Below, piece by piece: positions 1,129 to 64,000 of a stretch of 64,000 nt of DNA. A program made the position numbers and the translations under genes. The notes below the pieces were generated by a model. That model saw only the letters and a list, made by a program, of their open reading frames with translations, did no database searches and was not told where the DNA came from. The first letter of the stretch is position 1; every line of letters begins with the position of its first letter. Origin of the DNA: Pirellulales bacterium (GTDB taxonomy: Bacteria; Planctomycetota; Planctomycetia; Pirellulales; Thermoguttaceae); the NCBI GenBank assembly GCA_016935315.1, contig JAFGRD010000008.1:1-64000 (forward strand), read 5' to 3'.

Positions 1129-2736
1129 TCAGTCGGGGAATTCAACGCAATAGATGTGCACGGCCAGGGGCTCGAAGGAGTCCGTCCAGCGACCGGCGGC
1201 GGACCGGATCGCCCGGGACTCGTCGAGCACGTCGATCGGTGTGCCCGCCGCCAGGCCGGGCAACTCGATCGTGGCGGCGGTCGGCCGTGCCCGCTCGTCG
1301 TAGTTGACCGCGAAGACGTAGAGCTTGCCCTCGTGCCGGCGGGCCAACGCGTCCAGCTTGACGTCGTCTGGCGAGGCGATGCGGATCGGTTGCCCGGGCA
1401 ACTCCCCGAGAATGGCGGGCGCCAGGCGCGTGATTTGCCCGTTGATCTCCCGCAGGGCCGCGCGGTTCTGCTCCGGCACGCCGAACTGGTGGTACGACGG
1501 TTTCCAAACGTGCGTGAAGTAGCCGATGGCGGTGGCCCCCCGACAAACGGCCATCCAGACCTCCGCGCGGATGTGGGCCGGCGTGACGTCTTGCTGACGC
1601 TCCAGCGGACCGGTCCACTGTCCGCCCTTGCTGGTTTCGATCCAGGCGTAAACCGGCCGGTCCTTCGCCATGCCGACGAGTTGCTCCGTGGCATCGTGGA
1701 CGAGGTAGAGCCACTCGGGCTTGTTCCAGCCATAGATGGGGTAGATGTCGTAGCCGACCACGTCCGTGGCGCGGAGGTACGCGGGGTACAGATGATCGCG
1801 CTGCGCTTCAGACCACTTCCCAAACCGGGGATGGAAGTATCCCGTGAGCGTCATGAACACGGGCCGCAAGGGGGCGGCGGCCTTCATCGCCCGGTACTTG
1901 CGAAGCGTTTCCTCCGGCGTCGTCCGCGGCTCGTAGCGTGGCGGCGAGCAAAGCACGTTCTTCCCCGCCGCGTCGTAGCCGGCGATTTCGCCGATCGACC
2001 CCCAAACGTGTTGCCCGGGGTGCGTCGACTCGACCGTGATCGTCAGGCTCGCTAGCGTCGCCGGTTTCGAGAGCGAGAACTTCTGCTCCTCCCGCTTTGC
2101 CTCCAGAGTCGCTTTGAGAATCTCCTGTCCGTCGGCGGCAAGGGAGACTTCCTTGGCCACGGCCAGGCCCTCGGACGCCGTTACCCAAACGCCGACGGTT
2201 TCGATCGTCACGGGTTGTTTCGGACGGATCGTCACCGAAGCCCCTTCCAGCGGATCCAGCACCGACCAACTGTGCCACACGCCGTCGACGATCCGCCACA
2301 GCGGTGTGCTGGGGTTCGGACGCAGGTGCTTCGCCGGCACGACCTCGGCGTCGCTCACCTGTCGAGGCATGTCGGGCTCGTCGTCGTGGATGTAGCCGAG
2401 CAGACTGTGGCGGTCCTTCAATGCCGGATCGTAAGGCATCACGCCATAGAATCCCGCCTGTTCGACCAGCGTGAGATACTCGCCGACGCTCTTGGTGTCG
2501 CTCGACCCGGGATGATAGCCGGCCACGGTGTTCATTCCGCACTGCTCGACCAACGGGAAGTTCTTCGCATCCTGCAGCCAGGCCATCAAGGGGAAGAAGG
2601 GCCGGCCATTGACCTCGAAGGCCCGACCGGGCCGGATCTCCACTTGCCGGATCGGCGGGAGACCGTCGCCACCCAGGCCCGTTGTCCCAGAGGTCCCCAA
2701 CAACACGATCATCGACAGTCTCGCCCACGTCTTCAT
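1129..2736 (-). CDS. Secreted TIM-barrel glycosidase-like protein
   Basis: This start was chosen because a strong GGAGGGGG-type site lies just upstream and a signal peptide (KTWARLSMIVLLGTSG) follows; the open frame extends 31 codons further upstream without these. After the signal comes a beta-galactosidase-like opening (FEVNGRPFFPLMAW), then an inserted beta-sandwich-like stretch (about residues 140-260, discoidin-like in feel). The barrel then continues with VVGYDIYPIYGWNKPEW, RPVYAWIETSKGGQW and EVWMAVCRGATAIGYFTH. A small all-beta domain closes the protein. It is probably an extracellular or periplasmic glycoside hydrolase; substrate and exact GH family are not assigned. Confidence 0.7.
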   Translation of the reverse strand: MKTWARLSMIVLLGTSGTTGLGGDGLPPIRQVEIRPGRAFEVNGRPFFPLMAWLQDAKNFPLVEQCGMNTVAGYHPGSSDTKSVGEYLTLVEQAGFYGVMPYDPALKDRHSLLGYIHDDEPDMPRQVSDAEVVPAKHLRPNPSTPLWRIVDGVWHSWSVLDPLEGASVTIRPKQPVTIETVGVWVTASEGLAVAKEVSLAADGQEILKATLEAKREEQKFSLSKPATLASLTITVESTHPGQHVWGSIGEIAGYDAAGKNVLCSPPRYEPRTTPEETLRKYRAMKAAAPLRPVFMTLTGYFHPRFGKWSEAQRDHLYPAYLRATDVVGYDIYPIYGWNKPEWLYLVHDATEQLVGMAKDRPVYAWIETSKGGQWTGPLERQQDVTPAHIRAEVWMAVCRGATAIGYFTHVWKPSYHQFGVPEQNRAALREINGQITRLAPAILGELPGQPIRIASPDDVKLDALARRHEGKLYVFAVNYDERARPTAATIELPGLAAGTPIDVLDESRAIRSAAGRWTDSFEPLAVHIYCVEFPD

Positions 2737-2994
2737 CCGATCCCCCTCCCTTATCTGCTGTTTCCTACTCGCATCGCATGGGTGCAGCACCGTTTTCGAT
2801 GGCCCCGGATTGCGATGGTCCCGGACCATGCCCCGATTCTACTTCCCGAAGCATACCCGCCGCAAGTGGGGACATGACGGCCGGTGTGCTGGGTCGGTCA
2901 ATTTCCCGACGACGGCCGGCCCGGTGCGAGTGGGGGCGAGTTGGCAACGGGGGGGCGCTGACGCTTGCCGTGCAAAGGATCGCGACCGGGCGGC

Positions 2995-5004
2995 TCAGCG
3001 GAGCTCGGCCCCGTGCTGCGCACCACAGGCGGCCACGATCTGGTCGCGAAGCTCGTCGGCCTGTTGGTTGGTCATCGTGCCGTCCTTCGAGCGCAGCGTG
3101 ATGCTCAGCAAAAGGCTCTTCTTGCCCGGACCGAGTCGCTGCGGGTCGCGATAGGTGTCGATGTACGCCAAGTCCTCGAAGAACTTGCCGCAGTTGGCCT
3201 GCACCGTGGCGGCCACGTCGGCAAAGCGAATCGCCTCGTCGACGACCAGGTTCAGATCGCGGGTGAGGGCCGGGTAGGGCGGCTGCGGTACGTGACGCGG
3301 AACAAGCTGGGCCGCCCGGAACAGCAGCGACAGTTTCACCTCGGCCACGGTGGCCGGCGCGCGGAGCTCGAATTGCCCCAGACCCGCGTCGGTCAGCCGG
3401 CCGACGTAGCCGAGCAGCTCGCCGTCGAGCAGCAGCTTGCACGACTGGGCCGGATCGAGCAGTTCCAGGCCCCCGTCGGTGGCCTCCAGCCGCACGGCCG
3501 GGCACAGCGACGCCACGACCCCTTCGATCACGCCGCGGACCGCCAGGTAGTCGCGGCCGCTGGTCAGGCAGAGCATCGGCTGCTCGTCGGGCAGCTTCTT
3601 GCGGGGCAAATACACCCGGGCAATCTCGAACAACTCGATCTCGACGTTGGCCAGCGCTTCGTTGGCGCGCCGGGCCATAAGCAGGCTGGGCACCAGGCTG
3701 GTCCGCAACCGATCGGCCCCGCGCAGCGCCGCCGTCAGGCTCCGCAAGGGCGCCGCGTCGGTCCACGGGCTGAAGACGCCCGCCATCCGCTCTTCGACCA
3801 TGCTCGACGTCACGGCTTCGTCGAACCCGACCGCCGTGAGTACCTGCCGGGCCTTTTCCACCACGCGATCTTCCCGCCGCCGGGCCGAAGGAACCATCGG
3901 CACGCCCACGTCCTCGGGGATCTCGTCGTAGCCGTGGATCCGCGCGACCTCTTCGACCAGGTCGATCTCCCGGCCCAGATCGCGCCGCCAACTGGGCGGG
4001 CGGACCTCAATCGTCTCGCGGTCCTGCCGGATCTCCTCGTTGCCCAAGGCGACCAGGATCTCGCGGACCCGCTGCGGCGGTACCTCGATGCCGAGGACTC
4101 GCTTCAGTTGCGCCAGGCGCAACACGATCGGCTCCCGCCGGGCAGCCGACGATCCGACGTCGACCACGCCCGCGGCCAGCTCACCCCCGGCCAGCTCGAG
4201 AATCAACTCGCAACAGCGCCGGCTGGCCCAGTCGAGGTTCTCGGTGTCGACGCGACGCTCGAAGCGATAGGACGAATCGCTGTGGAGGTTGAGCGTGCGG
4301 GCCGTGTTGCGGATCGAGATCGGGTCGAAATCGGCGGCCTCGATCAGCACGTCGGTGGTCTTCTCGGAGATTTCCGTTTGGGCGCCGCCCATCACGCCGC
4401 CGATGGCCACGGGGTCGCGGGCGTCGGCGATCACGCAGGTGTCGGGCCCCAAGGGGTAGGTCTTGTGGTCGATGGCCTCGATCGCCTCGCCCGGCTGCGG
4501 ACGGCGGACGATGATTTCGCGGCCCCCCAGCCGGGCGAAGTCGAAGGTGTGCAACGGCTGGCCACACTCCATCAGCACGTAGTTGCTGATATCCACCACG
4601 TTGTTGACCGCGGTGATGCCCAGCGTGTCCAGCCGTCGGACCATCCACGACGGGCTGGGGCCGATCTTCACGCCGCGGATCACCCGGGCCGTGTAGCGGT
4701 AGCAAAGGTCGGGGCAATCGACCCGCACCTTGACCAGCTCGTCGACGGGCGTTTTGCCCTCGGGCGGCTGGGCCGGGGGAATCGTCAGCGTCGAGCCCCA
4801 GAGCACGGAGACCTCGCGGGCGATGCCGAGGTGGCCCAGGCAGTCGGGCCGGTTGCTGGTCACCTCGAGATCGATTGCCAGGTCGCCGCCGACCTCTTCG
4901 GTGCCCTCGTGGTTCAGGCCTGCCATCATCAGCCGCCGTTGCAGCTCCTCGACCGGCATGGTCAACGGCACGTACTGTTTCAGCCAGTTCCAGGAGACGA
5001 TCAT
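2995..5004 (-). CDS. pheT: Phenylalanine--tRNA ligase beta subunit (short form)
   Basis: PheT pairs with PheS as an alpha2beta2 enzyme that charges tRNA-Phe. The protein has 669 residues against roughly 790 in most bacteria. It runs straight from the N-terminal helix (IVSWNWLKQYV) to LAIDLEVTSNRPDCLGHLGIA, so the ~100-residue EMAP-II-like tRNA-binding domain normally between them is absent. The B3/B4 region (MECGQPLHTFD, IGGVMGG), the B5 domain and the C-terminal FDX-ACB anticodon-binding domain (YPALTRDLNLVVD, SLLLSITLRSKDGTMT) are all present. It lies downstream of pheS with a 68-bp gap. Short PheT forms are known in some phyla, so this is a lineage trait rather than damage. Confidence 0.96.
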   Translation of the reverse strand: MIVSWNWLKQYVPLTMPVEELQRRLMMAGLNHEGTEEVGGDLAIDLEVTSNRPDCLGHLGIAREVSVLWGSTLTIPPAQPPEGKTPVDELVKVRVDCPDLCYRYTARVIRGVKIGPSPSWMVRRLDTLGITAVNNVVDISNYVLMECGQPLHTFDFARLGGREIIVRRPQPGEAIEAIDHKTYPLGPDTCVIADARDPVAIGGVMGGAQTEISEKTTDVLIEAADFDPISIRNTARTLNLHSDSSYRFERRVDTENLDWASRRCCELILELAGGELAAGVVDVGSSAARREPIVLRLAQLKRVLGIEVPPQRVREILVALGNEEIRQDRETIEVRPPSWRRDLGREIDLVEEVARIHGYDEIPEDVGVPMVPSARRREDRVVEKARQVLTAVGFDEAVTSSMVEERMAGVFSPWTDAAPLRSLTAALRGADRLRTSLVPSLLMARRANEALANVEIELFEIARVYLPRKKLPDEQPMLCLTSGRDYLAVRGVIEGVVASLCPAVRLEATDGGLELLDPAQSCKLLLDGELLGYVGRLTDAGLGQFELRAPATVAEVKLSLLFRAAQLVPRHVPQPPYPALTRDLNLVVDEAIRFADVAATVQANCGKFFEDLAYIDTYRDPQRLGPGKKSLLLSITLRSKDGTMTNQQADELRDQIVAACGAQHGAELR

Positions 5005-53425: not shown

Positions 53426-53611
53426 TAGCCCCGCGCCCCGCGCACGGGTAGAGCCAACGGCACTCGGTTCACTATCCTCCGTGAGTGCCACCTCGCCGTC
53501 AGTGATATTCTGGACACTATCTCTCATCTGCCACCCCGTTGGGGACCACTTGCTTGCGGCGTCCGAATGCCTGTAGAATGCATGAGTTATTACGGCCCGC
53601 GGGAACCTGCA

Positions 53612-54592
53612 ATGAACACACAGACTGCACAGGATGCGGAATTCCGTGCGGAGGACTTCGTGCCTCCCGAGCTTCACGAGTTGCCGAATCCGCAAACAGC
53701 CATACCCGCAATCGCCAAAAACAAGCGGCTGCTGAGCCTGATCGCCGAGGCTGTTCAGCAGATTCCCACCCGGCACGAACTCCATCGGTCTGACGCCCGC
53801 ACGATGCGGTTGGAACCCGAGTCCGTCCACTTGGTCATAACCTCTCCGCCGTACTGGACGTTGAAGGAATACAGAGATACCGAAGGCCAACTGGGACACG
53901 TGGACGACTATCGCGAGTTTCTTCGAGAACTGGACAAAGTATGGAGCCGATGCTACGAGGCCCTGGTTCCCGGTGGCAGGCTTGTCTGCGTTGTCGGCGA
54001 TGTATGTCTATCTCGGAGGAAGAACAAAGGCAGACATACCGTGGTTCCTCTGCACGCCTCGATCCAAGAGCATTGTAGGGCAATCGGCTTTGACAACCTG
54101 GCACCCATCATCTGGCACAAGATTGCCAACGCGGTCTACGAAGTCTCGAACGGTTCCTCATTCCTCGGAAAACCCTATGAGCCCAACTCCGTGATCAAGA
54201 ACGACATTGAGTTCATCCTCATGCAGCGCAAGCCGGGCGGATATCGCAAGCCAAGTGTCGCCACGCGCGTGCTGAGCGTGATATCGGCCGAGAATCATCA
54301 GAATTGGTTTCAACAGATATGGATGGGTTTGACGGGAGCGTCCACGCGAAGGCACCCAGCCCCGTACCCGCTCGAGTTGGCGGAACGGCTTGTCAGGATG
54401 TTCAGCTTCGTTGGGGACACAGTCCTAGACCCTTTCCTGGGCACGGGAACCACGGCGCTTGCCGCGCTGAAGTATGGCAGAAACAGCCTGGGGTTCGAGA
54501 TCGACGAAGAGTATTTTGCTCTGGCGCGGCGCAGCGTCGCCGAAGCAAGCGCAGACTTCTTCCGCAGGGCAACGGTGAAGTATCATGGATGA
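53612..54592 (+). CDS. Beta-class DNA methyltransferase of a type II R-M pair
   Basis: The catalytic motif VHLVITSPPYWTLKEYRDTE (about residues 70-90) comes before the AdoMet motif TVLDPFLGTGTTALAALKYG (about 275-295), the beta order. SPPYW is most often seen in N4-cytosine methyltransferases; adenine methylation is possible. 326 residues, no target-domain anomalies visible. ATG 53612 is preferred; the frame opens 15 codons earlier. The nuclease gene starts eight bases before this gene's stop, so the two are translationally coupled. The region is lower in GC than the flanks, a sign of transfer. Confidence 0.9.
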   Translation: MNTQTAQDAEFRAEDFVPPELHELPNPQTAIPAIAKNKRLLSLIAEAVQQIPTRHELHRSDARTMRLEPESVHLVITSPPYWTLKEYRDTEGQLGHVDDYREFLRELDKVWSRCYEALVPGGRLVCVVGDVCLSRRKNKGRHTVVPLHASIQEHCRAIGFDNLAPIIWHKIANAVYEVSNGSSFLGKPYEPNSVIKNDIEFILMQRKPGGYRKPSVATRVLSVISAENHQNWFQQIWMGLTGASTRRHPAPYPLELAERLVRMFSFVGDTVLDPFLGTGTTALAALKYGRNSLGFEIDEEYFALARRSVAEASADFFRRATVKYHG

Positions 54593-55319
54593 CCTGAACG
54601 CACGAGTTGGCAAGGCGGTCAAGCTCTTTTGGCAGGTGCGAGACAAGCAGGCAGCCAATCAAGGTGGGCGCACGGGGCAGCGAGACGCCGATCTCCGGAC
54701 TGCTGTCACTGGCGGGAAGCATCTGGATGGATTCGTTGCACTGTGCCGGGACCTGCTGATCGAGTCCGGTCTGCCGGAAGCCCATCTTTTTTGGGCCAAG
54801 AAGTTGGAACTGCCTGGCTTCTTTCGTGCGGAGAAAAGCTGGGACTTGCTTGCGGTCGTGGATGGCCAATTGGTGGCCATCGTCGAATTCAAGGCACAGG
54901 TCGGGCCGTCATTCGGGAACAATTTCAACAATCGCACGGAAGAAGCCTTGGGAAACGCCACGGACCTGTGGGCTGCCTATCGTGAGGGGGCATTCCAGCC
55001 GTCACAGCGTCCTTGGTTGGGCTATTTGTTCGTCTTGGAGGAGTGTCCGCGTTCCGTGGCCCCCGTGCAGGTTCGCGAACCTCATTTCAAAGCATTTCCC
55101 GAATTCCAGGGAGCATCCTATGCCAAGCGATACGAGATTCTGTTGCTGAAGCTGCAGAGGGAGCGTCTCTACGATGGGGCGTGCTTGTTGCTTTCGACAA
55201 GGAAAGGCGGCCTGCGGGGGCAATTCCGAGTTGCCAACGAAGAGTTGAGTTTCTCCCAATTCGCTACGTCGCTTATGGCGCATGCGATGGCATTCGCCAA
55301 GACTCACAAGGCAAGCTGA
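54585..55319 (+). CDS. PaeR7I/XhoI-family restriction endonuclease
   Basis: The 244-residue protein follows PaeR7I closely: GGKHLDGFVALCRDLLIESG, KLELPGFFRAEKSWDLLAVV, EFKAQVGPSFGNNFNNRTEE, ALGNATDLWAAYREGAFQPS, QRPWLGYLFVLEECPRS and EFQGASYAKRYEILLLKLQR. The PD-(D/E)xK site is D87 ... E101-F-K103. PaeR7I and XhoI cut CTCGAG, so that is the probable target; it is not proven here. The gene overlaps its methylase. Known PaeR7I-type systems use a gamma-class adenine methylase, whereas this partner is beta class. Confidence 0.9.
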   Translation: MDDLNARVGKAVKLFWQVRDKQAANQGGRTGQRDADLRTAVTGGKHLDGFVALCRDLLIESGLPEAHLFWAKKLELPGFFRAEKSWDLLAVVDGQLVAIVEFKAQVGPSFGNNFNNRTEEALGNATDLWAAYREGAFQPSQRPWLGYLFVLEECPRSVAPVQVREPHFKAFPEFQGASYAKRYEILLLKLQRERLYDGACLLLSTRKGGLRGQFRVANEELSFSQFATSLMAHAMAFAKTHKAS

Positions 55320-55976
55320 GGCTAATGGCGTCGGCGGTTTCCGAACTGGCCGGAGGGCGGTCTCCGCGCGTGGAATCAGGCTTTTGAAACGGTGTGGCTT
55401 TGCCACGAGAGGTTGGGGCGAATCGGTCTACCCGCTGAATAGGAACTCCTAGGCAACGACGCCACTCGTATCAGCCAGCGGACCTCCGCTTACAGTCGGT
55501 TGCCCGCTGGACGAGTCCTGAAGGCAACCTCCCAGGGCTTCGTCCCAGCGGCTCAAGAACACCCGCTGTCGATTCTCACTCGACGTGTGCACCAGGTGCG
55601 AGTTTCCGTGGCCGACCACGAGGGCACAGCGTCGAATTGAACCCAAATCGCTGCTTGGCGCAAGGCCGTTGACTCCACCTATCTTGTGCGGGGATAAACC
55701 CTGCGGCTCGACGTCGTACACAACGGCCTGATTGGGTGGTATGGTTGTGTATTGACAAGAAACCGCGACACATTCGGGCCGCATCGCGCAAAAGGAATTA
55801 TGGGGCGTTTTGGCCTTGCGAAGCCGGACCCATTGTGCCCGACCTTTTGTGGCTCCGCAAGCGTTTTGTGAAACTTCTTGGGGCTCCGGATCGTCCAAGC
55901 CAATAACACGGAAATCGAGGCCGTGCCGAGTCGGCGGCGACGGCACACGCCCTGGTGGCACCGAGAACACGCGTCG
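55320..55976. other. 657-bp intergenic region after the R-M pair
   Basis: No gene is supported. A long minus-strand frame covers 55449-56258 but overlaps the sigma factor gene; its text (VYDVEPQGLSPHKIGGVNGL, SSENRQRVFLSRWDEALGGC) fits no domain clearly. This may be the decayed end of a transferred segment. GC rises again near 55900, where the sigma factor gene begins. Confidence 0.35.
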
Positions 55977-56591
55977 ATGAACGCCCAGCAGGAACACGAG
56001 GTTGCCGAAGGCTTGCGGGAAGGCCGCATCGAGGCCTGGCACGCGCTGTACGACGCCTACTGTCGGCGGGTCTGGTCGGCCGTGGCCCGCCAGATGGGAC
56101 CCCATGCGACCGACGTGGCCGACGTGGTGCAGGAGACGTTCCTGGCCGCGGCCCGTTCGGCGCGCAGCTACGACCCCTCGCGGGGATCGCTCTGGTTGTG
56201 GCTCGGCGGGATCGCCCGCAACCACGTGGCCCTGCACTTCCGCAACCAGCGGCGGCACGACCGGCTGAGGCGGGCCGACGACCCCTTGGCGGCAGCCAGC
56301 CTACAGATCAGCCGCTGGCTGCAAAGCCGCGAGGCGCCGCCCGGCGCCGCCTTGGCTACGGCCGAGGTGGCCACGGCGGTGCGTGCCGCGTTGACCGAGT
56401 TGCCGGCGGACTATGAGACCCTGTTGACGGCCAAGTATTTCGACGGCGCCACGGTCGAGCAGATCGCCACGGTCGAGCAGTCCACTTCGGAGGCCGTCCG
56501 TTCCAAGCTGGCCCGAGCGAGGCGCGCGTTTCGCCGGGTGTTCGCCAAAACCTCTGCATGCGCCGACGACGGTCATGGGAGGCACCCATGA
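55977..56591 (+). CDS. ECF RNA polymerase sigma factor
   Basis: 204 residues. Region 2 (LYDAYCRRVWSAVARQMGPH, DVADVVQETFLAAARSARSY, GSLWLWLGGIARNHVALHF) and region 4 (RAALTELPADYETLLTAKYF, DGATVEQIATVEQSTSEAVR, SKLARARRAFRRVF) fit ECF sigma-70. The region-4 turn holds a 15-base direct repeat that encodes ATVEQ twice. The stop overlaps the start of the giant gene as ATGA, so the two are coupled in translation. That is the usual arrangement of a sigma factor with its membrane anti-sigma. The start is the ATG before NAQQEHEVAEGLREG. Confidence 0.92.
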   Translation: MNAQQEHEVAEGLREGRIEAWHALYDAYCRRVWSAVARQMGPHATDVADVVQETFLAAARSARSYDPSRGSLWLWLGGIARNHVALHFRNQRRHDRLRRADDPLAAASLQISRWLQSREAPPGAALATAEVATAVRAALTELPADYETLLTAKYFDGATVEQIATVEQSTSEAVRSKLARARRAFRRVFAKTSACADDGHGRHP

Positions 56592-59500
56592 ATGATCACG
56601 ACGACAATCGGACCGACGAGCGTGTGGCAGCCCTGTTCGCCGCGGTGAACACGGATGCGGCCGTCCCCGAGCCCCAGTTTCTTGACCGGCTGCGCGAGCA
56701 ATCGACCCAGGTGTTCGCGGCCGAGTCCGCCCAACCAGCTCAACTTCCCGTTAGGAGACGAAACATGTTCACCCTGGCCATGCGAGGTGTGATGGTGACG
56801 GCCGCGGCCACGATTGCCGCCGCGGCCTTCCTTTGGTCCTCGATCTCCCCCGACGATTCGGCCCTGGCGTTTGGCAAGGTGCTCGACAAGGTCGCCCAGG
56901 CCGAAACCGTCCAACTGGAAATCACCCGCGACGGCAAGTCCGAACGGGCCTGGGCCCGGCGGCCGGATCAGTTGCGGATCGACCATGCCGACGGGACGTA
57001 TCAGATCGCCCGCGGGTCGAAGTTGTGGCGCGTCGATGAAAAGGCCAACCGGGCCACCACGCAAGCCTCTCCCTACTTCCGCGCCGACCAGCCCGGGTTC
57101 GATCTGCTGGCCCTGGTCGAGTTGCCGCAGCCGGCCGACCGCAAGGAGCTGTTGGCGGCGCGGCCGGCGGAGCGGGTGCGGCGCGACGGCCTCGATTGTG
57201 ACGTCTATCGCATGGAAGTCCCGGCGTCGGCGGGCAAGGTCGCGATCGAGGCGGTGGTCGACGCGGCCACCGGCCAACTGCGGTCGCTGGAAACCCTTTC
57301 CTGGGTTGACCGCGCGATCCGGCCGAGGGTAAAAGTCAAGGTGCTGGCCGTCGACCAGCCGGTCGACGAGGGGCTGTTCGTCGTCGGCGACACACTCACC
57401 GAGGACGGCCGCGTGGGCAAGGTGACCGACGTGCAGGGAATCGTCTCCGTCAAGCCGGCAATGCACCGCCGCTTCACACCCGTGGCAACACACATGCTCC
57501 TGAAGCCTGGCGATTGGCTGCGGACCGACAACCGCGGCGCCAACGCAATGGCTTTCCGCCTGGTCCAGCGGGCCGACGTGACGCTGGGCCCCGGCTCGCT
57601 GGTCGAAGTGGTCTCGCCCGAACAGCTCCGCCTGAGCTCGGGCGAGCTGAAAGTGGTCGCCGACGGCAAGGCCCCGTTGACGCTGATCGGCCCGGGCGAG
57701 CAGAAGATCACGGTCGCCGGGACGCAGGTCTATCGGTTGCAGAAGGAAAAGCTGGTGCGGGTCGAGCAGGCGCCGCTGTGGGTGGCCGGGTTCGAGGGTG
57801 CGACCGCCAACGAGTCGATCGGCTCGCTGATCGCCAACGTCGACGGGCGCAACGTGCCGCTGACGGTCGGCTATCACAAGGTCTCCGTCGACATCCGCGA
57901 CCAGATCGCCCGCACCGTGATCGAAGAGTCGTTCGTCAATCATACGGTTAGTCGGCTGGAGGGCGTGTTCTACTTCCCCTTGCCTCAGGACGCCTCGATC
58001 TCCGGGTTCGGCATGTGGATCGGCAACGAGCTGGTCGAAGCCGACGTGGTCGAGAAGCAACGCGCCCGCGAAATCTACGAAACGATCCTCCGCGAGCGTC
58101 GCGACCCGGGGCTGCTGGAATGGTCGGGCGGCAATATCTTCAAGGCCCGGGTGTTTCCCATCGAGGGCCGTTCGGAGAAGCGGATCAAGATCACCTACAC
58201 CCAGGTGCTGCCGCTGCAGGGCGACCGCTACCGCTACAGCTACGGGCTGCAGAGCGAGCTGCTGAAGCAGCATCCGCTTCGCGAGTTGGCGATCGACGTG
58301 AAGATGAGCTCGGCGATGCCGCTGGCCGGCGTCAGCTCGCCCACGCACACCACGCGAATCGATCGGACGGCCCATTCGGCCCACGTGGAATTCGCCGCCC
58401 AGGACTACACACCCGAACGCGACTTCGAGGTGCTCGTGGAAACCGGCGGCGAGCGGTCGGACGTGGTGGTGATTCCCCATCGCCGCGGCGAGGACGGTTA
58501 CTTCATGGTGCAGCTTACCCCGCCGGCCGGCCGGGACGCCTGGCAGCGCGAGCTGCTGCCCGACGGCAAGCCGCTGGAGTTGCTGATCCTGGCTGACACG
58601 TCGGCCTCGATCGACGCCGACAGCCGGGCCGCGCAGGCCGACTTCCTGGCATCGTTGCTGGGATCGCTGACGGCCGAGGACAAGTTCAACCTGGCCGGGT
58701 GCGACGTCGATTGCGACTGGGTCTTCAAGCAGGCGCAGCCCGCCACCGAGAAAAACACCACGACGGCGCGCCAGTTCCTGGCCGATCGCATCTCGCTGGG
58801 CTGGACCGATCTGGACAAGGCGTTCGCCTCGGCCGCAGGCCAATGCGGAAAGCAGACGCAGGTGCTCTACATCGGCGACGGCATCGTGACCGGTAAGGAC
58901 GTCGATCCGGTGGCTTTCGGCAAGCGGCTGTCGCGGCTCTGGCAAGGCAAGGCCACCCCGGCCCACGCCGTCGCCCTAAGCAGCAGCTTCGAGCCGATGG
59001 TGCTCAAGACGATCGCCTCGCTCGGCGGCGGCTCGCTGCGGCAGATCGGCGGCGAGAACCGCCCCCAGGACGTCGCCCTGGGGTTGCTGGCCGAAATGGC
59101 CAGGCCGACCTTGCGCAATCTGAAGATCGAGTTCCGCGGCCTGCGTACCGCCCGGGTCTATCCCGAACAACTGCCGAACCTGTCGGTCGGCACGCAGCAG
59201 ATCATTCTGGGCCGCTATCTGCCCGAGGAGGAAGACCAGGTCGGCGAGGTGATCGTCACGGGCACGTTGGACGAGCAGCCGGTTACGTTCCGCGGCCGGG
59301 TGACGCTGCCGTCGGCCGACGCGGGCAACTCCTTCATTCCCCGACTGTGGGCCCGCATGCACCTGGACGCACTGCTGCGGCAGGGCACTTCAGAAGCGAT
59401 CAAGGACGAGATCATCGCACTGTCGGAGGAATACCACATCATGACGCCGTACACGTCGCTCCTGGTGCTGGAGAGCGACGAGGACCGCGAGCGGTTCAAG

Positions 59501-62500
59501 GTCAAGCGGCGCTTCCAGATGCGCGACGGCGAGCGGTTCTTCGCCACCGGCCGCGACAACGTGGATTACGAATTGATGCAACAGCAGATACGGCGGGCCG
59601 GCAACTGGCGGATCGGCCTGCGGCACGACGTCTTGCGGCAACTGATCGCCATGGGCCGCAACCCGCAACTGTTCCAGCCACAGCAGTATTACGAGCGCTA
59701 TGGCGGGCGCTACAGGGGCGATTACTCCTTCCCGGCGTCCGGCCCCATGGGCGCGGGAGGCATGGGAGGCCTTGGCGGCATCGGAGGCTGGGGCATGGGG
59801 GGAGGAAGTCTGGGCGGGATCTCGCTCCCCGGAGTGGACATGGAAGTGGCGGGAAGCGTTAGCGCCTGGTACGCCAATGGGCGTATCGCGCACGCCATCG
59901 ACGAACTGGCCGTTGACAAGCAAGCGGATCTCGGCTTCGAGATGATGGGCGAGAGGAAGCGCGAGCTCAGCTTCGATTCCGCCGAGGGTCTGGAGGCATT
60001 CGAGCCCATGGACGATTGGGCCGACGGCGATGAGTTCTTCCAAGGCAGATTGTCCGATCGAATTGCCGGGCCTGCTGATGCTGCCGAACCCGTCTCTTTC
60101 GAGGGCCTCGAAGAACTCGCTCGACGTCCCGCTTCGCTCTCTTCGTTGCGACAACGGTCCACCCGCGGGCTGCTCGAGCTGAGCCGGAAGAGCCTTGGCG
60201 CGGGGTCGCGAGCGTTCAACGCCCCGATGACGGCCGGACTATTCTTCCGCGAGTCGCAAGAACAAAGCCAGTACACGCAATGGCTCGACACGCTCTTCCC
60301 CAACCTGCCGCCCGTGCCGCAGGAAGAGAAGCCGATCGAGCCGAAGCAGGTCTGGCCGGACGACGCCCGGGCGCTGGCCAAGAGCCTGTTGCGAACCGAC
60401 ACCTTGGCTGGATTGCAGGGCGGTCTGAAGATCGAGAGCCGCAGCGAGTCCTTCGACGCCCGCTGGGACATGCTGACCTCGCGCAGCGAGACGCTGATGC
60501 TGGTCTCGCCCCAGGCCTGGCTGGTACGCGGCGGCGGATACGGCTCGCAAACTACGATCCAGTGGTGCAACGAGCAAGAGCGCGGCGTGCTGTCGAAGGC
60601 ATTCCAGCTCGGCCGCACTCGGGCCTCCGAGCCGCTGGACCTGAGCAAGCCCCCGTTGAGCCTCGAAGGCCCTCTGCTGACGCCGCTCGATCGGACTTAT
60701 CACGCCTATCGGGCCGAAGTGAGCCCGCAGGGGGATGACCGGGCACTGCTGGTGCTTCGGCAGCCCTCCAATGCCGACTACGCGATCCGCTTCCTGATCG
60801 ACACGGCTCGGCACGTGGTCTTGCGGATCGAGAGCCATCAGCAGGGCGCGATCGCGTCGACGGCCACCTTCGGCGAGTTCGTCGAAGTGGCCGGCGCTTG
60901 GTGGGCCACGCGCATCGAGCGGACCGACAAGGAGGGCCGGCGGACCTCGCTGGCCACGCTGCAATTCACCCCGTTGGCCGCCGAACCGTTTGCCGGAGAG
61001 ATCAACGGTCAACTGGCCGGCCGCGACCACGTGGCCTTTCTCCGCGTGCCGCTGGTGGAGGTCAACGACGCCAGGCGGGCCGTCCAAGCGGGCAAGGCCA
61101 CTTTCGACGACCAGATGGCCATGGTGCTCTACTTCGCCGACAGCCAGCGATGGCAGCGCGTGATGGAGCACCTCGCGCAGGCCGAACAACTAGCCGCCGA
61201 CAAGCCTGGGCTGCGCTGGGTCCGCGACGCACTGATGAACGTCAGCCGCCGCCGCGAGGAGCTCAGGCAGCGGTTCCTCGACGAGGCCGCCCGCATCGCC
61301 CGACCGACCGCCAAGGGGAACTCGGAGGAGTGCTTCCTGGCCGAGTATCTCCACGGCCAGGCGTCCGGTTTCCTGGAAGCCAACGAGCGGATGCAACTGC
61401 TCGATGTGCTCAAACCCGTCTATGCCCGGCAGGTGCCTCATCTGCAGCGCATGAAGCTCTGGAACCAGTATCGCGTGGACTTGTTGCGTCAGACCGGTCA
61501 GGCCGACGAGGCGATGCGGCTGCAGGAAGAGATGGCTAGGCAGCATCCACACGACAGCAATCTCCAGCAGCAATACGCCCAGGCCCTGGCCAACGCGGGC
61601 GATCACGAAGCGGCCTACGCCTGGCTGAAGCGCGTGCTCACCGACGACGCCAAGTGGCACTCCTATGAAGAGGATTCGCTGCGCAATACGTACACGAATC
61701 TGTTGCGCAACCAGGGGCGCTATCCGGAACTGGTCGATCTTCTGGCCGAATGGATCGGGCGGAAGCCCGAGAACTCCACGGCCTATCACCAATATCTCGC
61801 GGCGTTGATCCAGTCGGATCGGATCGACGAGGCCAACGGCCTGATCGGCCGCTGGCTGGAGGAGGCCCGGACGCCGGAAAGGCTGAAGTCCGACGTGGCG
61901 GCCCGGCTCAGCGCGGCCGTTTCCCAGGCCCTGGGACAGGGTTACAACCTTTATACCAACCGGATCGACGAGCGCTGGCTGGAGCCGCTGGCCCAGACGG
62001 CCCTGTTCTTCGCGCGGCACCCGAGCCACGCCTCGACGGCCGATCAGATCATGGGCCACCACCGCTTCCGCGACAGCGACGCCTGCCGCCAGGTTCGCCG
62101 GAAAGTCGCCGCCATCGTGGTTGCCGAGATCGAAACGCTCGAGCCCGACCAGGTCCGGCGGCTGGTCGACTGGATCTGGCCGAACGACCCGGCGGTGGAG
62201 GCCCGCGCGTGGAAGCGGATCGCGGACGTGCTCCAGCAGCGTTGGTCCAACGAGTCCGACCTCGAGGCCAGGCACCAACTCGCCCAGCCGCTGGTCAAGA
62301 TCCTCTCGGGCCGGCTGACACCCGAGGAGCACTTGGCGTTTCTGCGGCGGCAGGTGCAGGAAGGTCCCGAGAAATACCGCACTGCGTACATCAATCAACT
62401 GTTCGACACCCTGCTGACGCAGCCCTGGTCGGCCGAATGCGAGAGCGAGGCCTTCTCGCTGTTGCCGAAGCTCTCCGACGCCGAGCAGCCGGCCCAGCGG

Positions 62501-64000
62501 CTCTGGGCCCAGGTGGCGGCGCTGCACCGCCTGACCGACGCCATGGTCCAGGCCCGCTACGACGCCCGGATGGCCAAGGTCGAGCACCAGGAAGAACTCA
62601 CTCGCACGGAGTTGCGGGACAAGCAGTCGGAGAACCTCAAGGCCGCCCGACAGGGATTCGCCGACCGGCTCCGCGAGGCCATGTCGGCCGCCCCCGGGCA
62701 GTCGGCCTCGTGGATGCAGGCGGAGCGTCTCTATCTCGACGTGCTGACGGGTCGGAACCTCGACCGCGCGGCGGAAGATTGCTGGGAGGTCCTCGGGCCG
62801 AAGCCGCCGAAGCCGGTCGAGGAGCCGGAGCTGCAACAGCAGCTCGAAGAGGTCCTCCGCGACCGGCTCTTGCTGACGCTGGCCAATCTGGCGGCCCGGC
62901 GCAACGCCGATCCGGAGTTGATCACCCGGCTGCTGAAGTACGCCGACGACGGGATTGCCGCCGACGCCAAGGACCTGCGCTGGAAACTGCTGAAGTATCA
63001 ACTGTTGATTGCTCTGGATCGCCCCAAGGATCTACAGCAGGATCTGCGCCGGTGGCTCACGCCCGACGAGCCGGACAGCTTCTGGCGGCTCTCGCTGGGC
63101 TATCTGCTGGCCGAACAGGGGGAGATTCCCGAGGCCATCAAGCACTTCGAGGCGGTCGAGACGGCCAACGAGCTGGGCGCGGCCGAGTACCGCACCTTGG
63201 CCGACTGGTACATGGTCGTCGATCGCCGCGACGAGCACGAGCGGGCGCTGATTTCCGTCTTCAAGCGCATGGAGGAATGGCGGCTGAACGACTGGCTCTA
63301 CCAGAAGCTTCGCCCTTGGCAACAGCGCCAAGGCGAATTGCCCGGCGAACTGGATCAGGACGTGCTGCGGGTGTTTGCGGCGCTGTTCGAGAAGTCGGGT
63401 TCCCCGCAAAACTACCTCAGCCGGCTGAGAGATTACTATCGCGCTTCGCGCGATTTCCGACTGTTGGCCGGCCTGGCCGACGGCATCGTGGGCCACACGG
63501 CGGCCTGGGTCTATCCGTTCCTGCAAGGGATGGACTCGATCCTGCGTGAAGTCCGCGACGAGGCCACCGCCGACTCGATAGTCGAGCATCTGGCCACGGT
63601 TCGCCGACGGGCCCGGACCGAGGTGGACCACCGGGCGATCGATCTGCTGGAGGCGCTGGTCGAGCGCCGCGCGGCCGAAGTGCTCAACCAGCCCGGCCCG
63701 CACGCCGAGCGGGCCCTGGCCGCCATGCACCGGGCCTTCCACCGGGAGTGGACGCCCGGCGAGCCGCGTCTGATGGCCGACCTGCTGGCCAGCCTGGGGC
63801 GGATTTCCCATCCGGAGTTGGCCGCGGAGCAAATCCGGCAGCTCGAGGTCCTTCATCAACAGGCGGCCGAAGGCACGATCGATCGGCTGCACATCGCCCA
63901 TCGCCTGGCCAACGGCCATTGGAGCTACGCACGGCAGGACGAGGCCATCGATCTGTTGGAGGCGGCGCTTGGGGAATTCCTGGCCACCGTCGACGGAGTG
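56588..64000 (+). CDS. Giant membrane protein: LolA-like, FecR, VIT, VWA, helical repeats (partial)
   Basis: The frame stays open for 2,471 codons and leaves the window. Order: cytoplasmic N-end (DDNRTDERVAALFAAVNTDA, PEPQFLDRLREQSTQVF), as in sigma-linked anchors; one membrane helix (about 60-82, MFTLAMRGVMVTAAATIAAA); LolA/RseB-like beta domain (85-265); FecR-like domain (270-395, DVQGIVSVKP ... KPGDWLRTDN); VIT domain (420-570, VEADVVEKQRAREIYETILR); VWA domain (660-835) with metal site D670-T-S-A-S; Gly/Met-rich linker (~1050-1085); second LolA-like domain (~1270-1470); then >950 residues of TPR-like helices. No zinc anti-sigma motif is seen. AGGAGA lies before an internal ATG at 56765, a possible second start. 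Confidence 0.85.
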   Translation, partial: MNDHDDNRTDERVAALFAAVNTDAAVPEPQFLDRLREQSTQVFAAESAQPAQLPVRRRNMFTLAMRGVMVTAAATIAAAAFLWSSISPDDSALAFGKVLDKVAQAETVQLEITRDGKSERAWARRPDQLRIDHADGTYQIARGSKLWRVDEKANRATTQASPYFRADQPGFDLLALVELPQPADRKELLAARPAERVRRDGLDCDVYRMEVPASAGKVAIEAVVDAATGQLRSLETLSWVDRAIRPRVKVKVLAVDQPVDEGLFVVGDTLTEDGRVGKVTDVQGIVSVKPAMHRRFTPVATHMLLKPGDWLRTDNRGANAMAFRLVQRADVTLGPGSLVEVVSPEQLRLSSGELKVVADGKAPLTLIGPGEQKITVAGTQVYRLQKEKLVRVEQAPLWVAGFEGATANESIGSLIANVDGRNVPLTVGYHKVSVDIRDQIARTVIEESFVNHTVSRLEGVFYFPLPQDASISGFGMWIGNELVEADVVEKQRAREIYETILRERRDPGLLEWSGGNIFKARVFPIEGRSEKRIKITYTQVLPLQGDRYRYSYGLQSELLKQHPLRELAIDVKMSSAMPLAGVSSPTHTTRIDRTAHSAHVEFAAQDYTPERDFEVLVETGGERSDVVVIPHRRGEDGYFMVQLTPPAGRDAWQRELLPDGKPLELLILADTSASIDADSRAAQADFLASLLGSLTAEDKFNLAGCDVDCDWVFKQAQPATEKNTTTARQFLADRISLGWTDLDKAFASAAGQCGKQTQVLYIGDGIVTGKDVDPVAFGKRLSRLWQGKATPAHAVALSSSFEPMVLKTIASLGGGSLRQIGGENRPQDVALGLLAEMARPTLRNLKIEFRGLRTARVYPEQLPNLSVGTQQIILGRYLPEEEDQVGEVIVTGTLDEQPVTFRGRVTLPSADAGNSFIPRLWARMHLDALLRQGTSEAIKDEIIALSEEYHIMTPYTSLLVLESDEDRERFKVKRRFQMRDGERFFATGRDNVDYELMQQQIRRAGNWRIGLRHDVLRQLIAMGRNPQLFQPQQYYERYGGRYRGDYSFPASGPMGAGGMGGLGGIGGWGMGGGSLGGISLPGVDMEVAGSVSAWYANGRIAHAIDELAVDKQADLGFEMMGERKRELSFDSAEGLEAFEPMDDWADGDEFFQGRLSDRIAGPADAAEPVSFEGLEELARRPASLSSLRQRSTRGLLELSRKSLGAGSRAFNAPMTAGLFFRESQEQSQYTQWLDTLFPNLPPVPQEEKPIEPKQVWPDDARALAKSLLRTDTLAGLQGGLKIESRSESFDARWDMLTSRSETLMLVSPQAWLVRGGGYGSQTTIQWCNEQERGVLSKAFQLGRTRASEPLDLSKPPLSLEGPLLTPLDRTYHAYRAEVSPQGDDRALLVLRQPSNADYAIRFLIDTARHVVLRIESHQQGAIASTATFGEFVEVAGAWWATRIERTDKEGRRTSLATLQFTPLAAEPFAGEINGQLAGRDHVAFLRVPLVEVNDARRAVQAGKATFDDQMAMVLYFADSQRWQRVMEHLAQAEQLAADKPGLRWVRDALMNVSRRREELRQRFLDEAARIARPTAKGNSEECFLAEYLHGQASGFLEANERMQLLDVLKPVYARQVPHLQRMKLWNQYRVDLLRQTGQADEAMRLQEEMARQHPHDSNLQQQYAQALANAGDHEAAYAWLKRVLTDDAKWHSYEEDSLRNTYTNLLRNQGRYPELVDLLAEWIGRKPENSTAYHQYLAALIQSDRIDEANGLIGRWLEEARTPERLKSDVAARLSAAVSQALGQGYNLYTNRIDERWLEPLAQTALFFARHPSHASTADQIMGHHRFRDSDACRQVRRKVAAIVVAEIETLEPDQVRRLVDWIWPNDPAVEARAWKRIADVLQQRWSNESDLEARHQLAQPLVKILSGRLTPEEHLAFLRRQVQEGPEKYRTAYINQLFDTLLTQPWSAECESEAFSLLPKLSDAEQPAQRLWAQVAALHRLTDAMVQARYDARMAKVEHQEELTRTELRDKQSENLKAARQGFADRLREAMSAAPGQSASWMQAERLYLDVLTGRNLDRAAEDCWEVLGPKPPKPVEEPELQQQLEEVLRDRLLLTLANLAARRNADPELITRLLKYADDGIAADAKDLRWKLLKYQLLIALDRPKDLQQDLRRWLTPDEPDSFWRLSLGYLLAEQGEIPEAIKHFEAVETANELGAAEYRTLADWYMVVDRRDEHERALISVFKRMEEWRLNDWLYQKLRPWQQRQGELPGELDQDVLRVFAALFEKSGSPQNYLSRLRDYYRASRDFRLLAGLADGIVGHTAAWVYPFLQGMDSILREVRDEATADSIVEHLATVRRRARTEVDHRAIDLLEALVERRAAEVLNQPGPHAERALAAMHRAFHREWTPGEPRLMADLLASLGRISHPELAAEQIRQLEVLHQQAAEGTIDRLHIAHRLANGHWSYARQDEAIDLLEAALGEFLATVDGV

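Follow-up and report, generated by a model that had tools for sequence, protein, structure and literature searches.

An ECF sigma factor gene and its giant neighbour

At the end of a 64,000-nucleotide stretch of DNA from a Pirellulales bacterium (positions 1 to 64,000 of contig JAFGRD010000008.1, which has 79,871 bases; the whole stretch is called the window here), a gene for an extracytoplasmic function (ECF) sigma factor runs into the gene of a giant, predicted membrane-anchored protein, within which the window ends. The original prediction had described an ATGA overlap between the two genes and a protein of more than 2,471 residues, and both descriptions stand: the ATG of the giant at 56588 overlaps the TGA of the sigma gene (stop at 56591) as ATGA, with GGGAGG upstream of the ATG, and reading past 64000 yields 3,142 amino acids (aa) with a stop at 66016. 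Judged by its sequence, the sigma factor is of the ECF (group IV) type, having regions 2 and 4 only in about 200 aa. Its matches to Sigma70_r2 (50.3 bits, 2.1e-13) and Sigma70_r4_2 (37.0 bits, 2.6e-9) both lie over the Pfam cut-off, and it also passes the cut-off of TIGR02937; against TIGR02989 it scores 74.8, under the cut-off of 124.55. The features of the locus are these (residues are those of the giant):

55765–55792, + strand: two-box promoter-like element GCGACACA-N13-GCGCAAA, exact form, 185 to 212 nucleotides (nt) 5′ of the sigma ATG
55977–56591, + strand: ECF sigma factor gene, 204 aa, regions 2 and 4 (Pfam, TIGR02937)
56588–64000 and on to contig base 66016, + strand: giant protein gene, 3,142 aa in all
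56588–56767, + strand: residues 1–60, two-helix cytoplasmic end, proposed anti-sigma domain (AlphaFold2; its presence tracks the sigma gene)
56777–56845, + strand: residues 64–86, membrane helix with RRRN before it (hydropathy; AlphaFold2 helix 73–85, low confidence)
56852–57406, + strand: residues 89–273, LolA/RseB-like half-barrel (Foldseek and VIA-align on the AlphaFold2 model)
57404–57763, + strand: residues 273–392, divergent FecR-like beta domain (hhalign; structure match to 5ix9)
57875–58198, + strand: residues 430–537, VIT domain (Pfam VIT, 3e-27)
58577–59038, + strand: residues 664–817, VWA domain with complete metal site D670, S672, S674, T740, D764 (Pfam VWA_3, 1.3e-10)
59705–60142, + strand: residues 1040–1185, variable linker with a Gly/Met-rich stretch (sequence; low conservation and occupancy)
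60350–61048, + strand: residues about 1255–1487, second LolA-like domain (AlphaFold2, Foldseek)
61055–64000 and on to base 66016, + strand: residues about 1490–3142, helical region with TPRs (Pfam; AlphaFold2 at its start)

What does the giant present to the cytoplasm? An AlphaFold2 model of residues 1–425, made from an alignment of 46 sequences of relatives, has a mean predicted local distance difference test score (pLDDT) of 86.7, with every block of 10 residues across 91–400 at 85 or more. It places helices at 8–22 and 29–47 in the cytoplasmic end and, together with hydropathy, agrees with the short cytoplasmic end and single membrane helix of the original prediction, the helix at low confidence. 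Residues 1–425 of the window protein match no Pfam family at E 0.5, no anti-sigma family is found among the 25 of 32 Pfam families listed for all 46 aligned members, and the best match of the cytoplasmic end among solved structures (E 1.2) is not an anti-sigma factor.

Cytoplasmic ends and sigma genes across relatives

Is the sigma gene tied to the giant as a whole or to one part of it? A scan of named genomes covered the best 80 of 112 relatives, and 4 more from the window and further relatives brought the first set to 84 loci. Zavarzinella formosa DSM 19928 (L064) and Thalassoglobus neptunius KOR42 (L102) are carriers available in culture. Of these, 71 could be evaluated; the other 13 (L085, L088, L095, L097, L098, L108, L115, L116, L118, L120, L124, L125 and L130) were dropped for an open 5′ end, less than 700 nt upstream or a broken frame, and among them a sigma gene is present at L098 and none was seen at the other 12. 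Loci were classed by what precedes the core of the giant. Class 1L has the two-helix end, the membrane helix and the LolA/RseB-like domain, class 1n has the same without the LolA domain, class 3 has a dissimilar end plus a membrane helix (with a Pfam FecR domain after the end in all three examined) and class 0 has a signal peptide alone. An ECF sigma gene lies directly upstream in 40/40 loci of class 1L, 6/8 of class 1n, 5/5 of class 3 and 0/18 of class 0, which pooled gives 51/53 with a cytoplasmic end against 0/18 with a signal peptide (Fisher's p = 6e-15, ignoring kinship). Three loci were placed in class 1 by hand, namely L063, which a loose threshold had drawn into the class-3 model and which has no match to a model built excluding it, and L043 and L082, which gave weak matches only (E 0.14 and 0.021); the sigma gene of L089 is in two pieces and was counted as present. 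The two exceptions, L078 and L081 (class 1n), keep fragments of a sigma gene just before the giant, corresponding to the first ~47 and the last ~57 residues, respectively. Both are draft metagenome bins in which mis-assembly is possible, with no N runs there. The fragments themselves (L078:8856-8999 and L081:9841-10011) have the appearance of sigma genes in decay, in bins that group with Gemmataceae rows.

The association was replicated by searching the second LolA region of the giant, at a threshold of E 1e-20, in 393 genomes of the window's phylum. Thirty-six genomes matched, with one match each, and they furnished 34 stretches (G000 and G055 being already in the first set). Removal of 9 first-set duplicates, 3 stretches that lack the core, 4 whose 5′ end is open and 1 in which the frame is broken (L186) left seventeen to be counted, the near relatives L192 and L193 among them. 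The sigma gene is present in 6/6 loci with a cytoplasmic end and in 0/11 without.

A chance neighbourhood of sigma factor and giant is ruled out by the counts of the two sets, and the regulatory tie of the sigma factor to a membrane-anchored chain, as originally claimed, is strongly supported by both. The part of the chain responsible for this tie can now be narrowed. It is the cytoplasmic end that tracks the sigma gene, whereas in 29 evaluable relatives (18 + 11) the core (FecR-like, VIT, VWA and onward) stands with no sigma gene beside it. Nor does the tie need the first LolA/RseB-like domain, as 6 of the 8 class 1n proteins keep the sigma gene and the other 2 keep fragments. Relatives without a neighbouring sigma gene, which the original prediction had taken as a sign against itself, do exist, but they lack the cytoplasmic end, so that the idea is refined. 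The envelope part is a self-sufficient protein, found in other lineages without an adjacent sigma gene.

The ends of class 1 and class 3 are unlike each other: profile comparison gives 0.4%, and the class-3 model gets no class-1 end below E 0.88. Their sigma factors share a mean identity of 21% between the two types, against 48% and 43% within them, and in a set of 52 sigmas the 5 of class 3 group in a single clade. Dissimilar ends of the proposed anti-sigma kind have probably been joined to a common core at least twice. In an unrooted tree of the VIT–VWA core (78 rows), class 1 and class 3 occupy separate parts, that of class 1 being large, and each part also holds class 0 relatives, some of them titled Verrucomicrobia, Kiritimatiellae or Latescibacterota; because the root of this tree was not inferred, gain and loss are generally not separable. 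L072 and L073, a close class 0 pair placed among sigma-linked class 1 rows, appear to have lost the end, the LolA domain and the sigma gene together; upstream of them no convincing remnant of the end or the sigma gene was found (best tblastn E 0.017). When kinship is taken into account, well-supported branches supply 4 independent contrasts, which agree in almost all of 200 pairings. A partial Mantel test on 39 pairs gives positive co-evolution of the sigma factor with both the FecR-like part (partial correlation 0.35) and the end (0.48).

The proposed loop and its competitors

We consider it likely, from sequence and its distribution, that the giant is the membrane-anchored anti-sigma factor of its ECF sigma neighbour, and that the two form a mainly self-regulating loop that sets its own supply. 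The original prediction spoke of a scaffold that holds the sigma factor; the tie of sigma and chain stands, and anti-sigma factor is the better description of the chain. With its first ~60 residues the giant would keep the sigma factor at the membrane's inner face; that this end binds it is suggested by the co-occurrence and by the two independent unions. One membrane helix would link the inner end to a chain of LolA/RseB-like, FecR-like, VIT, VWA, LolA-like and TPR-type parts, the anatomy of which comes from hidden Markov models, profile comparison and AlphaFold2, and which presumably lies outside the membrane. A changed envelope state (a ligand, misfolding or the loss of a partner) may then lead to release of the sigma factor, perhaps through regulated proteolysis of the kind known for RseA. 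The window genome encodes M50 proteases, as do all 14 control genomes, which makes proteolytic release possible and says nothing stronger. Once free, the sigma factor would transcribe chiefly its own operon from GCGACACA-N13-GCGCAAA, a site that is present there, and the loop would thus mainly set the amount of the giant.

How selective is this element? In the 7.1 Mb window genome it has one exact copy, ahead of the sigma operon, and no copy with one mismatch; its 12 copies with two mismatches are close to background, for which the reversed pattern gives 8. A reading-frame check of the two-mismatch copies was uninformative, since all 13 sites, among them the true one, fall within spurious long frames. 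Among relatives, the two-box pattern is found in 20/39 class-1 upstream regions (2/39 on the other strand), 0/5 class-3 regions and 0/24 sigma-free giants, and CGACAC in 25/39, 0/5 and 1/24, respectively. Across 38 regions that share no 20-mers, the top gapped 5+4 pattern was counted 11 times, against at most 4 times in 5 resampled sets. The two-box pattern was written after the first set had been seen, and the only out-of-sample look comes from five later class-1 loci (the class-3 locus L200 being excluded), where CGACAC is present in 3/5 and both boxes in 2/5; in eleven sigma-free loci, CGACAC is present in 2/11 (L192 and L193, identical in sequence) and both boxes in 0/11. A looser motif run on 18 genomes stayed at background level (95 sites against 83 reversed) and recognised 1/8 sigma–giant loci (G320).

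Several points weigh against the loop. It is built on sequence and models, with binding, transcription and localisation inferred. The membrane helix (73–85) is weakly predicted by AlphaFold2, and the cytoplasmic end, just two helices ahead of the membrane, has neither a Pfam family (in the window protein) nor a solved-structure match. There are just 4 independent contrasts (sign test, median p 0.125), and the co-evolution does not single out the end because the FecR-like part co-varies with the sigma factor too. On the promoter side, the two-box pattern is missing in 19/39 class-1 regions and in 3/5 of the further ones, and CGACAC is missing in 14/39, in one of them (L098) for lack of upstream sequence. 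A wider pattern searched in 60 relatives gave 22 sites against 9 for the reversed control, in 20/60 genomes, most of them without a giant. Just 3 of these sites stand at sigma–giant loci (G000, G005 and G015) and the rest elsewhere: G000 and G005 have one site each, G015 has two, one of them at its sigma–giant locus, and the sites in G022, G026 and G055 fall away from that locus. As the wider-pattern sites of relatives are mostly elsewhere, only in the window genome does the claim of a single target have a firm basis.

Could the pair then be an ordinary envelope stress system of the RseA/MucA kind, in which the giant is an anti-sigma sensor and the sigma factor drives a broad regulon from looser promoters? 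The RseB-like fold adjoining the membrane helix would fit such a system, as would the M50 proteases, shared though they are with every control genome; many sigma-linked loci lack the strict pattern, so the promoter consensus may be loose. We nevertheless find a broad regulon unlikely, given that the window genome has no one-mismatch copy of the element, that two-mismatch copies are at background (12 against 8) and that 6 sigma-linked relatives lack the LolA/RseB-like domain. Less likely still is a cytoplasmic end that mainly activates or chaperones the sigma factor rather than inhibiting it. Pro-sigma activity is a property of FecR-type regulators, and the giant has a FecR-like domain. An excerpt of PMC13118517 states that the N-terminal end of the FecR-like Leptospira protein LIC12756 inhibits, full activation needing the whole protein. 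Activator and inhibitor would, however, yield the same gene pairing, and nothing here separates them. It would also suit the short end, unmatched by any known anti-sigma family, and the occurrence of the core without an adjacent sigma gene, if the sigma factor merely transcribed the giant's operon and the N-terminal end were a signal anchor not touching it; this we regard as very improbable, because the end and the sigma gene occur together and a sigma factor of another type accompanies the second, dissimilar end.

For the self-regulating loop of sigma factor and giant anti-sigma factor, a wider picture may be drawn, which we hold with slightly more doubt than belief. Here the sigma factor would have essentially one target, its own operon, and would regulate the supply of one giant envelope machine that is braked by its own inner end; the core would have recruited sigma control more than once by swapping the first ~100–300 residues. 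If the loop is real, then at 3,142 residues the giant is of unusual size for an anti-sigma factor, and its relatives form a natural series that shows one envelope protein gaining, exchanging and losing an anti-sigma module. The pair would also supply a promoter that can be tested, a candidate anti-sigma domain of minimal size (two helices, no Pfam match) and a route to finding the role of VIT–VWA–TPR giants, carried by 36 of the 393 phylum genomes searched.

The predicted envelope chain, kindred systems and neighbouring genes

The LolA/RseB-like domain read in the original prediction is confirmed by the predicted structure. With the fold of residues 89–273, the first 13 Foldseek rows are RseB/MucB (best E 9e-7), LolA coming next. 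VIA-align gives the half-barrel a Z of 10.3 against RseB 3m4w_C (root-mean-square deviation (rmsd) 4.0, 161 aligned) and pairs RseB solely with the LolA-type part (model 91–268); LolA, EPDR1 and other half-barrels tie or exceed this Z, so that the comparison establishes the LolA/RseB fold but not a special kinship with RseB. The FecR-like domain, also claimed from the outset, is a subtler case. Pfam FecR (PF04773) has no match in the window protein, nor is a canonical FecR found anywhere in its genome. An earlier profile comparison using 5 divergent FecR rows was negative (4.1%), whereas hhalign of residues 273–392 against 16 real FecR domains of related genomes gives 92.3% (score 43.1); none of 20 column shuffles exceeds 0.7% or a score of 14.8, and none of four further domains from the giant exceeds 0.6%. 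The domain also matches 5ix9 (Z 8.2, rmsd 2.6, 75 aligned). Going by these profiles, residues 273–392 are a remote FecR homologue, too divergent for Pfam in the window protein.

The VIT domain, the most conserved part of the giant, and the VWA domain with its intact metal site were both read correctly from the motifs: D670, S672 and S674 are kept in 80/80 aligned rows, T/S740 in 79/79 and D764 in 78/78 rows with a residue. From VIT to the end of the protein, median lengths are 2,666 to 2,757 residues over the four classes, outliers down to 698 being frames cut short. The intact metal site and the near-constant core length argue for a conserved binding or assembly job independent of the sigma factor. 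The Gly/Met linker and the second LolA-like part were likewise found as described. In a model of residues 1185–1625 (AlphaFold2, relatives' alignment; mean pLDDT 91.0) a LolA-type domain gives way to helices that extend from residue 1492 to the model end. The LolA-type fold matches LolA3 in Foldseek (E 5.7e-9), and structure comparison pairs it with 4z48_A (Z 12.5) and 9tp6_A (Z 12.4). Profile comparison of the two LolA folds of the giant found no sequence kinship between them (0.2%). The helical repeats, put at about 1,000 residues at first, are indeed of TPR type but belong to a region of ~1,650 residues; they were examined at its start (AlphaFold2, to 1625) and in parts (Pfam), the best stretches over cut-off being TPR_19 at 1634–1689 and TPR_14/TPR_11 at 2955–2993.

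In the E. coli sigmaE–RseA–RseB and P. aeruginosa AlgU–MucA–MucB systems, an ECF sigma factor is paired with a membrane-anchored regulator, and RseB/MucB acts in the envelope. The window pair shares with them the ECF sigma factor, the membrane-anchored regulator and the RseB/MucB-type fold. It differs from RseA–RseB (treated in passages among PMC8999054 and PMC8103513) in carrying the RseB-like fold in the same chain, where it is dispensable, in having FecR-like, VIT, VWA, LolA and TPR parts beyond it, and in that no neighbour besides the sigma gene is widely shared at giant loci (neighbours clustered, not annotated). FecI–FecR and Leptospira LIC12757–LIC12756 resemble the window pair in having an ECF sigma factor and a one-helix regulator with a cytoplasmic end and a FecR-type envelope domain, and the N-terminal end of LIC12756 binds its sigma factor, according to an excerpt of PMC13118517. 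Unlike FecR, the window protein has a FecR domain too divergent for Pfam and a chain about ten times as long, and its loci share no partner gene, a receptor for instance (again from neighbours clustered, not annotated).

Three sister VIT giants of 2,200–2,409 aa (L044:7128-15171, L045:4207-11544 and L046:2669-9547) make up a second family and have a canonical Pfam FecR domain before VIT. An ECF sigma gene lies 28 nt upstream in L044 and 135 nt upstream in L045. Both L045, which extends beyond its contig, and L046, which begins 87 nt from a contig end, finish with TPR matches. The sisters match the window protein mainly over VIT–VWA, and L045 has weak secretin/STN matches mid-chain. The VIT and VWA arrangement is also that of TIGR03788 and TIGR04477 (sortase/exosortase-associated VIT–VWA proteins), but the giant is far below their NCBIfam cut-offs (203 against 552 and 71 against 250 bits, respectively), and inspection of its C-terminal end by eye revealed no sorting tail. 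RsgI and RsiV carry an anti-sigma end on a membrane protein with an outside sensing domain; their likeness to the giant is functional only, and no homology is claimed. ECF sigma factors with membrane anti-sigma factors, FecR-type and RseB-type envelope parts and VIT–VWA proteins are already known kinds. A literature search with incomplete coverage gave no paper on the sigma–giant pair among the matches listed, and as far as was searched the novelty lies in the union of these parts in one very large chain, in the swap of the anti-sigma end on a common core and in a promoter pointing, in the window genome, almost only to itself.

When neighbouring genes were clustered across 78 loci, a cluster of 34 upstream sigma genes was the sole widely shared neighbour (the greedy gene choice of the clustering missed some sigma genes counted elsewhere). 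A cluster of 6 loci holds four class-3 sigmas, and the largest others hold 7 loci in scattered places. With no other neighbour widely shared, the unit is either the giant by itself or the giant together with its sigma factor. Directly 3′ of the giant (contig 66246–68359; L004:16247-18360) lie genes for an ABC ATPase and an ABC-2 permease, and an operon with this downstream exporter was rejected, the exporter not being shared next to relatives. Directly 5′ of the sigma operon, at window positions 53567–55319, are genes for a DNA methylase (N6_N4_Mtase) and an XhoI-type restriction endonuclease. Among the relatives, L186 (G400:C53) has in-frame stops (2 TGA and 1 TAA) in its second LolA region, from a broken gene or a sequencing error. 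L055 and L056 (JABMRB01 records titled Candidatus Nealsonbacteria) carry planctomycete-type giants with match places as in G015, a 9.1 Mb relative, and their bin is probably mislabelled.

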